Assembly (NCBI GenBank): GCA_018335935.1
Contig: JAGXRG010000057.1
Span: 1-64,000 of the forward strand
Length of the DNA stretch: 64,000 nt
Direction of reading: 5' to 3'
Source of the DNA: Chitinophagaceae bacterium
GTDB taxonomy: Bacteria; Bacteroidota; Bacteroidia; Chitinophagales; Chitinophagaceae
The position numbers and the translations under genes are program-made. The notes under the pieces were generated by a model. That model saw only the letters and a program-made list of their open reading frames with translations, did no database searches and had not been told where the DNA came from. Positions 4,701 to 34,702 of the stretch are shown piece after piece (position 1 is the stretch's first letter; each line of letters opens with the position of its first letter).

Positions 4701-5512
4701 GTTCTTATACTTACAAAAGTTTAAGTAAAACTACTATAGATGTTGTAGCTTCTAGACCAACTGTTGTTAGAGGTGATGTTGCAGGAAATGATCCTACTGA
4801 TTTTGGATTGATGTATAATATTAATTTATACGTTCCTAGTGGCAATCATGTAATCATAGTTTCAACAGATAGTGTTGCCAATATTTTCAGAAATAAAAAT
4901 ATTGCTTCAAACCCTTACCCATACAGCTTTTCAAATATTTTTAGTATTACAGGTAATAATGCAACCAATCAAAATGAGTTTTATTATTACTTATATAATA
5001 TGAATTTTAAATCATTAGATTGTTTGAGTGATAGAGTTTTAGTAACTCCAACTACCGCTATAAAACCAAGCATTACAAAAGTTGGTGATTCTTTAAAAGC
5101 AAATATTGGTATCAACTATCAATGGTTAAAAGATGGTGTTGAAATTTTAGGAGCAAATACACAAGCAATAAGACCAACCACTAGTGGAAATTATAGTTGT
5201 AGAGTTACAGATAATGGAGGTTGTGAGCAAACTAGTAATATCATCAACTTTGAATTAATTGCAAGTGGACAAGAACTAAAAATTTATCCTAATCCTGCCA
5301 ATAATACAATCAATCTGAATGTGTATAGCAATGCTAACTCATTTGCTGAAGTGAATATTATTGATGCAACAGGAAGAGTTTGTATGAGCAAAATATATAA
5401 TAGTCTTTCAACAACACGAATAGATATTTCTGTACTTAAAAATGGCATGTACACCATACAAGTAAAACAAGCAGCCAATACCTATCAAGCAAAGTTTATT
5501 GTTGCAAGATAA
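1799..5512 (+). CDS. Secreted S8 subtilisin-like serine protease with GEVED, Ig-like and T9SS sorting domains
   Basis: A 1237-residue multidomain exoprotease. A signal peptide ending in IYAQ (about residue 27) is followed by an S8 catalytic domain. The triad is D127 (IWDGG), H153 (HSTHVAGT) and S376 (NGTSMAAP), with N262 as the likely oxyanion residue. A P/homo B-like beta domain follows at about 470-580. A GEVED-type domain at about 590-730 carries the Ca-binding-like stretch IDYNNNGNFDDAGE. A CARDB-like domain at about 735-840 and an Ig-like segment at about 1110-1150 come next. The last about 80 residues start LKIYPNPANN and end in a basic tail, typical of type A T9SS sorting domains that direct secretion and surface anchoring. 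A palindrome begins 2 nt after the stop and may act as terminator. Confidence 0.93.
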   Translation: MDKFSNKFYKWLLGLVFLISPFTIYAQVNSITIDEGSIQKIKAKENSDQQLAISKAAKNIWPIFLQTKNSNQFTTLTRLDVNGLPIYTSTDNNLISAQTTKTNKIWGSGLNLSGSSTNMKGKIAIWDGGVAMNTHVELNGRIINKDASSQINHSTHVAGTMIAKGINPNAKGMAYGVEELNSYDFNSHISEMMSASNNLLISNHSYGVIAGWNQTLSGDWEFWGSPGENEDYKFGIYNEECQMFDSIAYNAPQYLIVKSVGNNRDKNGPSVGQPYKRLDSNGNMISAGNRPAGISNNDGFDIIPTYGVAKNILTVGAVEGITSGIATTEKIKLGSFSNWGPTDDGRLKPDLVANGVDVLSCVANNTTTYEMYNGTSMAAPNVSGSLFLLQELYSQKNSGNFMKASTLKALAIHTTTEAGVTPGPDYKFGWGLLNVEKAAQVINKTATAETKIIESTLNNSTTYTLNVIASGNEKLMATLVWTDPAATATTTNLLNNPTLKLVNDLDIRIVKNNTTYFPWVLNPTTPNAAATVGDNFRDNVERIEIDDVLPGGSYTIQITHKGSLARGSQAFSLIVSGVGGIAYCNSSPVYISGSRIDNVTFAGINNTTQLGCTQFREFGNYIAQLQSNTNYNFSISISSCDGSTASKFCKIYIDYNNNGNFDDAGELVATSNLIFGDGIFNGAITTPNNLLVNTFTRMRVVVQEANDANSITPCNSANHGETQDYKIWLQPVVLDAGITDIANPYQNNCANNNQLLSIQITNFGKTAISNIPLTAVIKNGSTTISSLTGNYIPTLEAGASANYTFQTPFTTNAATNYTIIAKSNLANDHRNSNDSIVLEVKSSNAVGTITAQASICSTAVSLRAFNTNPSQNYLWYNSPTTLTPIAFGSNTSSTTIAANYYLGSGINAAIGAVSKTNFTDGDYQAKGGNYFKYSSAVPLILEKAKLYTAYPGKVFITVADINTTNPDGSYTYKSLSKTTIDVVASRPTVVRGDVAGNDPTDFGLMYNINLYVPSGNHVIIVSTDSVANIFRNKNIASNPYPYSFSNIFSITGNNATNQNEFYYYLYNMNFKSLDCLSDRVLVTPTTAIKPSITKVGDSLKANIGINYQWLKDGVEILGANTQAIRPTTSGNYSCRVTDNGGCEQTSNIINFELIASGQELKIYPNPANNTINLNVYSNANSFAEVNIIDATGRVCMSKIYNSLSTTRIDISVLKNGMYTIQVKQAANTYQAKFIVAR

Positions 5513-5513
5513 T

Positions 5514-5548
5514 AAGCTTTGACAACTTTTGAAAAGTTGTCAAAGCTT
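5514..5548. repeat. TTTGACAAC palindrome, copy A (after the subtilase)
   Basis: Two 17-bp arms (AAGCTTTGACAACTTTT and its exact complement) surround one central G. The core is shared with palindromes at 5809-5839, 6218-6248 and 33914-33946. This copy starts 2 nt after the subtilase stop and lies 51 nt before the Y1 transposase start. It can fold as a long hairpin and could also stop transcription, but its persistence next to the transposase suggests a REP-like mobile palindrome. Confidence 0.85.
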
Positions 5549-5598
5549 ACGGATTTATATAAATAATTAAATAATATCAATTATAAATATTGTTACCA

Positions 5599-6171
5599 AT
5601 GGCTATTGTTGAACATTATTACACAAAATTTGAGGAAGAAAATTTTTATCATATTTATAATAGGTCAATTGATAAAAAACCAATGTTTTGCAACGATGGA
5701 AATTATGAGTATTTTTTAAAAAAATATGATGCTTATTTATCTGCTGTAATAGATACATATGCCTATTGCTTGTTAGGAAATCACTTTCATTTCTTGATTC
5801 GAATTAAAGATTTGACAACTTTCAAAAAGTTGTCAAATCAGCCCGATAACAAATCAACACATGATATTATAAGTCATCAATTTCGAAAATTTTTTCAATG
5901 CTATGCAATGTCATTTAATAAACAACAAAACAGAACTGGCACATTGTTTCAAACACCATTTAAAAGAGCCTTGGTTGATGATGACAGCTATTTTAGAAAG
6001 TTGATTTATTACATTCACTCAAACCCAGAAACACATCAGTTAGTTAAAGATTTTAGAGAATGGAAATGGAGTTCTTATCAAACCATGTTAATGGAAAAGC
6101 ATACCCAACTAAAAAATCAGAAGTGTTTGAATGGTTTGGCAATAAGCAACAATTTGAAAAGTACCATTTAG
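5599..6171 (+). CDS. REP-associated Y1 (HUH) transposase-like protein, frameshifted near its C-terminus
   Basis: A 190-residue protein of the Y1/IS200-related RAYT group. It carries the HUH metal-binding motif H62-F-H64 (LGNHFHFLIRIK) and the catalytic tyrosine region YYIHSNP (Y137/Y138), followed by WKWSSY, all hallmarks of single-strand DNA transposases that nick at hairpins. I chose ATG 5599 over an upstream TTG at 5590. The frame ends at 6171, but a run of six A at 6111-6116 looks one base short. Adding one A gives a longer family-like end (EVFEWFGNKQQFEKYH) to TGA 6222-6224. So this is a decayed gene, an assembly error or a slippage site. Palindromes A and C flank it and palindrome B lies inside it at codons 71-80. 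Confidence 0.85.
   Translation: MAIVEHYYTKFEEENFYHIYNRSIDKKPMFCNDGNYEYFLKKYDAYLSAVIDTYAYCLLGNHFHFLIRIKDLTTFKKLSNQPDNKSTHDIISHQFRKFFQCYAMSFNKQQNRTGTLFQTPFKRALVDDDSYFRKLIYYIHSNPETHQLVKDFREWKWSSYQTMLMEKHTQLKNQKCLNGLAISNNLKSTI
5809..5839. repeat. TTTGACAAC palindrome, copy B (inside the transposase gene)
   Basis: Two 14-bp arms (GATTTGACAACTTT and its exact complement) with a 3-nt centre. It starts exactly on a codon boundary and encodes residues 71-80 of the transposase (DLTTFKKLSN), between the HUH motif and the next helix, a region that varies in this family. Its core matches the two flanking copies. Confidence 0.85.
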
Positions 6172-6217
6172 AAAAACACAAATTAACACAAGAAGAAAAC
6201 ATATTTTTAAATGATGA

Positions 6218-6248
6218 GATTTGACAACTTTTTAAAAGTTGTCAAATC
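6218..6248. repeat. TTTGACAAC palindrome, copy C (after the transposase)
   Basis: Two 15-bp arms (GATTTGACAACTTTT and its exact complement) around one central T. The TGA that would end the restored transposase frame (6222-6224) lies inside the left arm. The right arm ends 20 nt before the aminotransferase ATG at 6269, so the hairpin also sits in that gene's leader or acts as a terminator between the two. Confidence 0.85.
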
Positions 6249-6268
6249 TGGTAATTAATAAACAAACA

Positions 6269-7459
6269 ATGAACATCCGTCAACAATTCTTTAAACATAT
6301 TGCACAAACTTCACCTGAGCCCATTGGCTTAGACATGGTAAAAGCTGAAGGCATTTACATGTTTGATGTTGATGGCAAGAAATATATTGATGGCATATCT
6401 GGGTTCAGTGTTGCCAATATTGGTCATAGCCATCCAAAGATTGTTGAAGCAGTTCAAACACAAGCTGCTGCTTATATGCATTTAATTGTTTATGGCGAAT
6501 TTATTGAACAACCACAAGTGGCTTATGCAAAATTGCTAACTGACCATCTTCCAGAAAATTTAAACTCAGTTTATTTTACCAATAGTGGTGCCGAAGCTGT
6601 TGAAGGTGCTATGAAACTGGCAAAGAGAGTAACCAACAGAAGCAAAATTATTTGCTTTAATCAATCTTATCATGGTAGTACACAAGGAGCATTGAGTTTA
6701 ATGGGAAGTGAATATTGGCGTCAAGCATATAGACCATTATTGCCTGATGTTTATCATTATAATTTTAATAGTGATGAAGCTTTTGAAGCTATTGACAATA
6801 CAACTGCTTGTGTTATTCTAGAACCTGTTCAAGCAGAAGCAGGTATTTTAAAAGCAAATGCAAAGTGGCTATCTTCTATTAGAGAAAAATGTAACCAACA
6901 TTGTACTTTATTAATATTCGATGAAATTCAAACTGGTTTTGGCAGAACAGGAAGTTTATGGGCATTTGAACAATTGAATGTAATTCCAGATGTATTATTA
7001 TTAGGTAAAGCCTTAGGAGGAGGAATGCCTTTGGGTGCATTTATTTCTTCTCAAAAAATGATGAGTACATTAAGCTACAATCCAGTATTGGGGCATATTA
7101 CAACGTTTGGTGGTCATCCTGTAAGTTGTGCAGCAGGCAAAGCAGCTTTGGAAGTTTTATTAGAAAATAATTGGATCAATGAAATCAAACAAAAAGAAAA
7201 AATACTTCAAGAAAAACTAAATCATTCAAAAATTAAAAATGTAAATATTGCTGGATTATGGGCTGCAGTAGAATTAGAAAGCTTTGAAGTAGTAAAATCT
7301 GTTGCTAAAATTTGTATTCAAAAAGGGTTAATTACAGATTGGTTTTTATTTGCAGATTCTAGTTTAAGAATTGCTCCACCATTAATTATAACTATTGAAG
7401 AATTGAACTTAGTGTGTGAAATTGTGATTAAGAGTATTGATGAATTTTATAAAGCTTAA
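6269..7459 (+). CDS. Class III PLP-dependent aminotransferase (acetylornithine/ornithine/GABA aminotransferase-like)
   Basis: A 396-residue cytoplasmic fold-type I enzyme. Visible hallmarks are the phosphate-binding NSGAEA (about residue 105-110), the cofactor-ring aspartate in IFDEIQTGFGRTG (D218), and the Schiff-base lysine K247 in LLLGKALGGGMPLGAF. The family moves an amino group between an omega- or alpha-amino donor and a 2-oxoacid, and the exact substrate is not evident. I start at ATG 6269 rather than an in-frame TTG at 6239, because the TTG falls inside the TTTGACAAC palindrome. The cupin gene follows after 3 nt, so the two are probably co-transcribed. No arginine or ornithine pathway genes are nearby to fix the role. 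Confidence 0.88.
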   Translation: MNIRQQFFKHIAQTSPEPIGLDMVKAEGIYMFDVDGKKYIDGISGFSVANIGHSHPKIVEAVQTQAAAYMHLIVYGEFIEQPQVAYAKLLTDHLPENLNSVYFTNSGAEAVEGAMKLAKRVTNRSKIICFNQSYHGSTQGALSLMGSEYWRQAYRPLLPDVYHYNFNSDEAFEAIDNTTACVILEPVQAEAGILKANAKWLSSIREKCNQHCTLLIFDEIQTGFGRTGSLWAFEQLNVIPDVLLLGKALGGGMPLGAFISSQKMMSTLSYNPVLGHITTFGGHPVSCAAGKAALEVLLENNWINEIKQKEKILQEKLNHSKIKNVNIAGLWAAVELESFEVVKSVAKICIQKGLITDWFLFADSSLRIAPPLIITIEELNLVCEIVIKSIDEFYKA

Positions 7460-33913: not shown

Positions 33914-33946
33914 AGATTTGACAACTTTTCAAAAATTGTCAAATCT
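33914..33946. repeat. TTTGACAAC palindrome, copy D (between kdsB and the glycosyltransferase)
   Basis: Two 16-nt arms (AGATTTGACAACTTTT and its complement with one mismatch at 33935) around one C. It shares its core with the three copies around the transposase at 5.5-6.2 kb, 28 kb away. It lies between convergent kdsB (+) and the glycosyltransferase (-), so it could also serve as a terminator. Confidence 0.8.
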
Positions 33947-34702
33947 GAAATTTTTCTGCAGCCTCATCAACTTATAATACTTCACCATTGTATTATAAGC
34001 AACAGTCCATGCAATAAAAAAACCATCAGCACCATCTAAAAAACCTAGCTTTAAAAAATAGCCTGATTTAAAAGCTATAATGGGATTAAAAAATAATTTA
34101 AACCAACTACTTCTTTTACCTTGCTCAAACATAGCTTGGGCTTGAATGGTAGTAAATTTATTTTGCTGTGTTAATACTTCTTCAACAGTATAATAACTGT
34201 AATGATGAATATCTCCTTTTAAAAATTTTATTGATCCTTTTTGTTTCAGTTCTAATTTATCGTGCGGGTTAACTCCTCCCCATTTACCTTTTTGTTGATT
34301 GATTAATCTAAGTTTACGATCAGGGTACCAAGTACCATGTTTAATCCATTTACCACAAAAATTAGTGCACCTGTTCATGGTATAAGCATCAGAAGAAAAC
34401 CCTGATTGCTTTAATTTTTTGATAGATTGAATAAGTGTTTCACTTAAACACTCATCTGCATCTAAACACAATACATACTGATTTTTACAAAGCTCTAATG
34501 CATAATTTTTTTGTTCTATATAACCTAGAAATTTCTGACTAAAAAACTTTACGCCATATTGCTTACATATTTGTTCGGTATGGTCGGTTGAATAAGAATC
34601 GACTACTACAATTTCGTTAGCAATCTCTTTAATACTATCTAAACATCGGGCAATGTTTTTTTCTTCATTAAACGTAATAATAGCTACTGAAAGATTTTGC
34701 AT
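33929..34702 (-). CDS. Family 2 glycosyltransferase (LPS core-type)
   Basis: A 257-residue GT2 enzyme. The GT-A start is VAIITFNEEKNIARCLDSI, followed by EIVVVDSYSTDHT and the metal-binding DxD-like LCLDADECLSE (about 98-108). CGKWIKHGTWYPDRKLRL and HYSYYTVEEVL are typical of the WaaE/KdtX-like group that adds hexoses to the LPS core. The 3' end of the coding region overlaps palindrome D, so part of the repeat encodes the last residues (NFRFDNF). Proximity to kdsB supports an envelope role. Confidence 0.87.
   Translation of the reverse strand: MQNLSVAIITFNEEKNIARCLDSIKEIANEIVVVDSYSTDHTEQICKQYGVKFFSQKFLGYIEQKNYALELCKNQYVLCLDADECLSETLIQSIKKLKQSGFSSDAYTMNRCTNFCGKWIKHGTWYPDRKLRLINQQKGKWGGVNPHDKLELKQKGSIKFLKGDIHHYSYYTVEEVLTQQNKFTTIQAQAMFEQGKRSSWFKLFFNPIIAFKSGYFLKLGFLDGADGFFIAWTVAYNTMVKYYKLMRLQKNFRFDNF

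Follow-up and report, generated by a model that had tools for sequence, protein, structure and literature searches.

Repetitive extragenic palindromic (REP) sequences and the REP-associated tyrosine transposases (RAYTs, or TnpAREP) are described as coevolving (Nunvar 2010, PMC2817692), and both intragenic REPs and a preference for gaps after genes or between convergent genes are known (PMC3733652). Quentin et al. (2018, PMC6006769) have already described an in-frame REP insertion between the HuH and Y motifs in TnpAREP subclass 2.4. The spread of REPs, and the role of RAYTs in moving them, are still open questions. We analyzed a 64,000-nt stretch of a Chitinophagaceae bacterium (contig JAGXRG010000057.1, positions 1 to 64,000; hereafter the window), in which a RAYT-type gene lies between two palindromes and carries a third in frame. 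The locus is, with high probability, a REPtron of Bacteroidota type, that is, a RAYT gene bounded by its own near-perfect palindromes of about 33 nt, with few solo copies; its enzyme would cut and move these units by analogy, and the in-gene copy would be a tolerated insert. This reading draws on the anatomy of the locus, the fold of a close relative, the co-divergence of palindromes and proteins, the association among genomes, and site differences between species, all of which were observed. The features of the window are as follows.

5513..5549, no strand: palindrome 1, 37 nt, upstream flank of the RAYT gene, immediately 3' of the stop codon of the upstream gene
5599..6171, plus strand: RAYT/TnpAREP-type HUH-Y1 transposase gene, 190 aa, frameshifted close to its 3' end
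5809..5839, no strand: palindrome 2, in frame within the RAYT gene; encodes DLTTFKKLSN (residues 71-80), located in the beta3-alphaC loop
6111..6116, plus strand: A6 run where the gene's reading frame breaks; continuing in the other frame leads to a C-terminus like that of the relatives
6218..6248, no strand: palindrome 3, downstream flank, 33-nt unit 6217-6249, containing the stop codon (6222-6224) of the other frame of the RAYT gene
33915..33945, no strand: palindrome 4, 33-nt unit 33914-33946 with one stem mismatch, between convergent genes

A reading of this DNA made from the sequence alone (the sequence-only reading) had proposed an HUH/Y1 transposase gene as part of a Bacteroidota REP/RAYT system. 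The gene was borne out, and the system is supported by the fold of a relative, the flanking palindromes, palindrome-protein co-divergence and the association among genomes. The protein encoded at 5599-6171 contains NHFH at residues 61-64 and a single catalytic tyrosine, Tyr138, in YIHSNP (Y---NP), and its group has the further motifs FQ and, after the core, SS (WSSY). The NCBIfam model NF047646 (REP_Tyr_transpos) matched the window protein at 53.6 bits (E 2e-14), below its cut-off of 80; this equivalog model has a narrower scope than the claim of being a RAYT, and it matched 8/8 members of a set of relatives. Pfam gave no significant match for the window protein, and PF01797, the family named for these proteins (PMC6006769, PMC2817692), was unmatched in 8/8 members at E 0.1. 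A profile of the eight relatives compared with solved structures had 4ER8 as its sole match (E 0.0011). The same entry, E. coli TnpAREP on a REP hairpin, was the best Protein Data Bank (PDB) match (Z 16.2, root-mean-square deviation 2.6, 156 residues; runner-up Z 9.0) of the AlphaFold model of the relative L133, which shares 71% identity with the window protein across 181 residues (predicted local distance difference test score 91.7). The tRNA-His guanylyltransferases and viral Rep proteins in the VIA-align list for this model were all at Z<7 and were taken to share the fold type. By predicted fold and by motif, we assign the window gene to the RAYTs.

Two observations would also suit an autonomous insertion sequence of the IS200/IS605 kind, made up of the whole flanked gene, instead of a RAYT unit. 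Three congeners have the same aminotransferase but lack the gene upstream of it (about 1.5 kb was visible in two and 0.3 kb in G133; the other neighbour is not conserved), and relatives of the window RAYT occur in distant genera (Pedobacter, Mucilaginibacter, Flavobacterium and Taibaiella). However, the tyrosine motif is Y-x-x-x-N-P and not the Y-x-x-x-Q of IS200/IS605, the genome holds one cognate gene, and TnpAREP is the closest fold by a wide margin; we consider this explanation quite improbable.

Compared with the described subclasses, the group mixes features, sharing in-gene copies with 2.4, the lack of GT[AG]G with 2.6, and FQ and SS with 2.1; subclass was judged by motif, not by the hidden Markov model profiles of Quentin et al. 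TnpAREP subclass 2.4 (PMC6006769) is similar in its in-frame palindrome between the HuH and Y motifs and has Bacteroidetes among its hosts. It differs in that the GT[AG]G foot was found in only 2/112 near-gene palindromes here, which do not conform to the canonical REP definition; in its WQ and YIxNNP, where our group has FQ and YIHxNP; and in being described without an extension after the core, where SS is conserved here. TnpAY1 subclass 2.6 (PMC6006769) shares Bacteroidetes hosts, SS, a YIH-type Tyr motif and flanking structures without GT[AG]G, but its 21-residue alphaC:beta4 insertion is absent here (helix 87-109 and strand 122-126 in the L133 model), and our group has FQ instead of WQ, in-gene palindromes and strong stems, those of 2.6 being described as weaker. 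NH[YF]H, FQ and SS are common to TnpAY1 subclass 2.1 (PMC6006769), which is described without REPs, whereas palindromes flank the genes here.

The E. coli TnpAREP/REP system (4ER8) is alike in fold, catalytic motifs and cognate hairpins, but its REPs are imperfect and bulged and need GTAG. The palindrome had been called unusually simple and nearly perfect by the sequence-only reading; simple it is, and the GT[AG]G foot is absent, but REPs that are perfect palindromes are known in group 3 RAYTs (PMC8266576), where they carry GTAG. Rickettsia palindromic elements and intragenic REPs (PMC3733652) are likewise in-frame palindromes in protein genes, with solo copies often between convergent genes; they occur in many unrelated genes, whereas in the surroundings examined here mid-gene copies were in the RAYT itself. 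A literature search that did not extend to most subscription journals found no paper on this combination of features.

The four palindromes of the window are of one type, and all are perfect or near-perfect. They had been noted before, within and after the gene and once more 28 kb away, and a re-scan recovered each of them: the second and third had the same coordinates (5809-5839 and 6218-6248), the fourth was at 33915-33945, and the first was present but spans 5513-5549 (37 nt) instead of 5514-5548. The window contains 9 instances of the 11-nt arm with at most one mismatch, where 1.86 were expected, and no shuffle among 100 gave as many. Folded as single-stranded DNA, the four palindromes had energies between -9.1 and -16.4 kcal/mol (z between -4.5 and -8.3). 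The unit length of 33 nt was derived from 87 copies of the window's type with different surroundings, in which agreement extends three bases past the TTTGACAAC arm (A in 160, G in 167 and A in 161 of 174 arms) and stops at the fourth; the edge positions are 92-96% A-G-A, with no consensus at position -4. AG...CT ends in 20/54 and 57/98 cases, counted without a control, would suit the CT cleavage sites of PMC8266576. Nested arm symmetry was seen in many types (17/44 at p<0.05, combined p 7e-11, the related loci being non-independent) and was not found in the window's own type (p 0.72).

The arrangement was then compared across relatives in two sets that share several genomes (e.g., G174, taken as Taibaiella lutea L157). 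The family set comprised 70 RAYT loci from a 244-genome family sample (the top 76 of 99 listed places minus six), and the named set comprised 80 loci from a scan of species genomes (the best 80 of 521 relatives). Near-gene palindromes were counted with arms of at least 11. Palindromes per kb in the family set were 2.19 upstream, 2.29 downstream, 0.39 inside the gene and 0.13 elsewhere; 33/70 loci had palindromes on both flanks, and in 56/70 the gene had one or more within it or nearby. The corresponding densities in the named set were 3.24, 3.44, 0.37 and, farther off, 0.12, with both flanks occupied in 49/80 loci and at least one palindrome in or near the gene in 73/80. The difference between palindromes tracks the difference between RAYTs (Mantel r 0.42, with 0/2000 permutations as high, n=49), and palindrome types follow clades on the RAYT tree, a quick tree with 32/85 inner branches open. 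Palindromes at L138, L141 and L058 were also observed downstream of the RAYT at fixed steps of 84, 87 and 69 nt, like arrays of bacterial interspersed mosaic elements. The record of L136 is titled Thiomargarita sp. metagenome-assembled genome, the name of a gammaproteobacterium; its RAYT is of Bacteroidota type, and seven copies of one 33-nt palindrome lie in the gene and around it. This may reflect either transfer or mis-binning.

The association was also examined among genomes. At two mismatches or fewer, the palindrome occurs in 22/244 family genomes with 113 copies in total, and a reversed control gave single matches in 5 genomes. All 6/6 genomes with a close RAYT (at least 58% identity) carry it, against 16/238 others (Fisher p 2.7e-7); for perfect copies alone, the counts are 4/6 and 10/238. 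In a phylum sample, the 33-mer was present in 2/395 genomes, the window's own and G595 (18 copies), the latter having a palindrome-flanked RAYT 63% identical to that of L133; G595 is apparently the same species as L141, with the same loop and array.

Whether genomes lacking the transposase also lack the palindrome, a check put forward with the sequence-only reading, gave a mixed answer. Four sampled G595 congeners had 0 palindrome copies, and the RAYT search there reached E 0.001 at best. Several results weigh against a simple link. Seven palindrome genomes that were retested (G013, G047, G218, G050 and G133, 95-100% complete; G112, 69%; G197, 78%) gave no cognate RAYT, the best match being E 8e-5 at 26% identity, and two of the seven are congeners of the window's genome. 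All four genomes examined from the window's genus carry copies, and the cognate RAYT was found in the window's genome only; the palindrome is thus present in related genomes without the transposase, which in part fulfils what that reading had named as refuting its proposal, an equal frequency of the palindrome in such genomes. Perfect copies in the 10/238 genomes without a close RAYT point the same way, as does G005, whose sole copy has 2 mismatches and whose RAYT has another palindrome type. Another member of the genus, G044, has a RAYT that is 42% identical, with stops and another palindrome type. A weak RAYT match in G013 was rejected as the palindrome's own translation. The seven genomes rule out strict dependence of the palindrome on the RAYT, and loss of the RAYT after palindrome spread would explain them; the link is strong but not strict.

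The window's own genome is a 2.86-Mb draft of 79 contigs with 5.6% contamination. The genome-wide palindrome count that had been suggested gave six copies at three mismatches or fewer, against one for the reversed control pattern. Four are in the window and two elsewhere (L007, in an intergenic gap, and L008, near another RAYT-like gene), and three of the six sit at the RAYT gene; this is not a high-copy REP genome. A protein search returned the window RAYT and one more match at E 0.06, leaving one cognate gene, whose other frame, past the A6 run, terminates inside palindrome 3. The frame loss may reflect an error in sequencing, a gene that is dead, or programmed frameshifting. Because the system is small and its gene is frameshifted, it is probably inactive or dying in this genome. 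An assembly or binning artefact would draw on the draft state, the contamination and the homopolymer at the frameshift; however, the arrangement recurs in isolate genomes (Flavobacterium, Mucilaginibacter and Taibaiella), which refutes an artefact for the arrangement, though the frameshift may still be one, and we regard this explanation overall as hardly credible.

Two side observations concern the copies outside the window. The second RAYT-like gene, at L008 (G000:C50, 2013-2582, minus strand), has YIHQNP and its own CGAGGCT palindromes, and it lies between direct copies at 1835-1965 and 2684-2814 (131 bp, 92%) of the end of a peptidase-like gene; the arrangement resembles an insertion event in which the end of that gene was duplicated. 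At L007 (G000:C47, 2000-2125), the palindrome copy is adjoined by a further repeat family, whose TTTCTCACTTCGTTCGAAATGAC-type stretches occur both repeated and inverted.

Palindrome positions were compared between relatives, as had been suggested, and presence differs at two orthologous sites. The glycosyltransferase gene at 33929-34702 (minus strand) takes its final residues and stop codon from palindrome 4, and the G044 ortholog ends without this palindrome-coded tail; at this kdsB site, the stretch seen for two other congeners contained no glycosyltransferase. The convergent gap at serC has the palindrome in T. lutea, and it is absent in three congeners with the same gene pair (1/4); T. lutea carries 37 copies, and those three congeners none. 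At a second Taibaiella site the neighbours were not conserved. These differences are at the level of species, with no event seen between strains, and they would fit a mobile palindrome.

The preference for convergent gaps could also mean that the solo palindromes never moved and act simply as intrinsic terminators or as stabilisers of 3' ends. In G174, 7/10 solo sites examined (of 37 copies) are between convergent genes (p 0.0035 vs 25%), and in the serC gap of two congeners another hairpin was seen by eye, as such a role would predict. However, letter-by-letter conservation over 33 nt in 87 copies, the tie to one RAYT clade and a place in a coding region would be unexpected for terminators, and a scan of 5300-6400 gave one site, palindrome 2, on the minus strand. 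We consider this explanation very unlikely.

The ten residues coded by palindrome 2, which is in frame as well as within the gene, fall in the loop that joins the HUH strand to the helix preceding the Tyr motif. In-gene palindromes occupy this HUH-Tyr loop in 13/70 family and 16/80 named loci; left out of these counts were L083, L092 and two palindromes in L156, which are outside the loop, and L045, which is in the loop but AT-rich and unlike its flanks. About six types were distinguished in the loop by eye. The in-gene palindrome differs from that of its own flanks by at most 4 of 29 edits in 16/17 loci having both, and by 7 edits in the last; the 25/90 loci with in-gene palindromes in this comparison are not a rate, as ten rows were pre-chosen. 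Six loci (L049, L050, L051, L054, L055 and L059) have an in-gene palindrome of another type (CCAAAGTT) with no flanking one within 300 nt. Among the 11 RAYTs with the window's in-gene type (window included), nucleotide identity is 0.95 in the palindrome and 0.64 in the rest, in 55/55 pairs. At codons for identical residues in those 11 RAYTs, third bases agree in 478/487 cases (98%) inside the palindrome and in 3203/5681 (56%) outside, which would fit either a young or re-inserted palindrome or one kept as DNA. An 89-row tree that includes the ten pre-chosen rows requires a minimum of 12 changes of the in-gene state, whereas none of 200 label shuffles gave fewer than 17; the state is therefore both inherited and repeatedly gained or lost. 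L137 and L141 have a look-alike peptide in the loop without a DNA palindrome, their genes being intact and their loops decayed, and the loops of L134, L135, L138, L150, L156 and L203 show, by eye, a decayed left half beside an intact palindrome.

Most likely, judging from these comparisons, the in-gene copies reflect repeated insertion into one tolerated loop. Three points count against this. For the window's common type, the flanks of up to 47% of other loci are equally near the in-gene copy, and the match to own flanks therefore says little for that type. In 11/11 loci of the window's type the palindrome is read in one frame, although a second would be open in every case. The L133 model shows the palindrome peptide as a confident short helix (residues 73-78). 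Both the single frame and the helix would suit a retained feature no less than a tolerated insert.

The alternative is that the in-gene palindrome is a kept functional element, either a hairpin in the gene or mRNA that is bound or cut to limit the gene's own expression or a homing site that matches target and enzyme. The cognate in-gene copies in 16/17 loci, the several types in the same loop, the near-identical third bases and the clustering of the state on the tree are what this would predict. However, the tree still requires at least 12 changes, no in-loop palindrome was found in 64/80 named loci, decayed loops survive in intact genes (L137 and L141), and recent insertion accounts equally for the third-base result; we consider such an element unlikely. 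A stronger form, that in this Bacteroidota RAYT branch the target hairpin of the enzyme is kept as coding sequence, with DNA target and enzyme loop being one sequence that would allow self-cutting or self-repression and keep the two matched during divergence, is in our view rather improbable.

Candidates for in-gene insertion elsewhere were rejected. A 604-aa frame in G013 (L128) with the palindrome inside another protein was judged over-long, its likely start being 3' of the palindrome; the L125 frame, of 72 aa, may well not be a real gene; and the palindromes of L006 and L113 are at gene 3' ends.

Under the preferred reading of a REPtron with a tolerated in-gene insert, the enzyme would bind the hairpin formed by one strand of the palindrome, as E. 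coli TnpAREP does, and Tyr138 would cut next to it. The small unit would then be copied or moved to new sites, mainly gene ends and convergent gaps. We infer cleavage and movement by analogy, and palindrome 2 as a unit inserted into the enzyme's own gene, which would be tolerated because it is in frame and in a length-variable loop. Later insertions may have renewed the in-gene copy in several lineages.

As far as the literature search reached, codon drift is a new kind of evidence on in-gene palindromes. Palindromes without GT[AG]G, in several enzyme-matched types and with in-gene copies datable by codon drift, may offer natural enzyme/target pairs for guide-free recognition. Should the in-gene copy prove to be retained for a function, the result would be a simple design for self-targeting.
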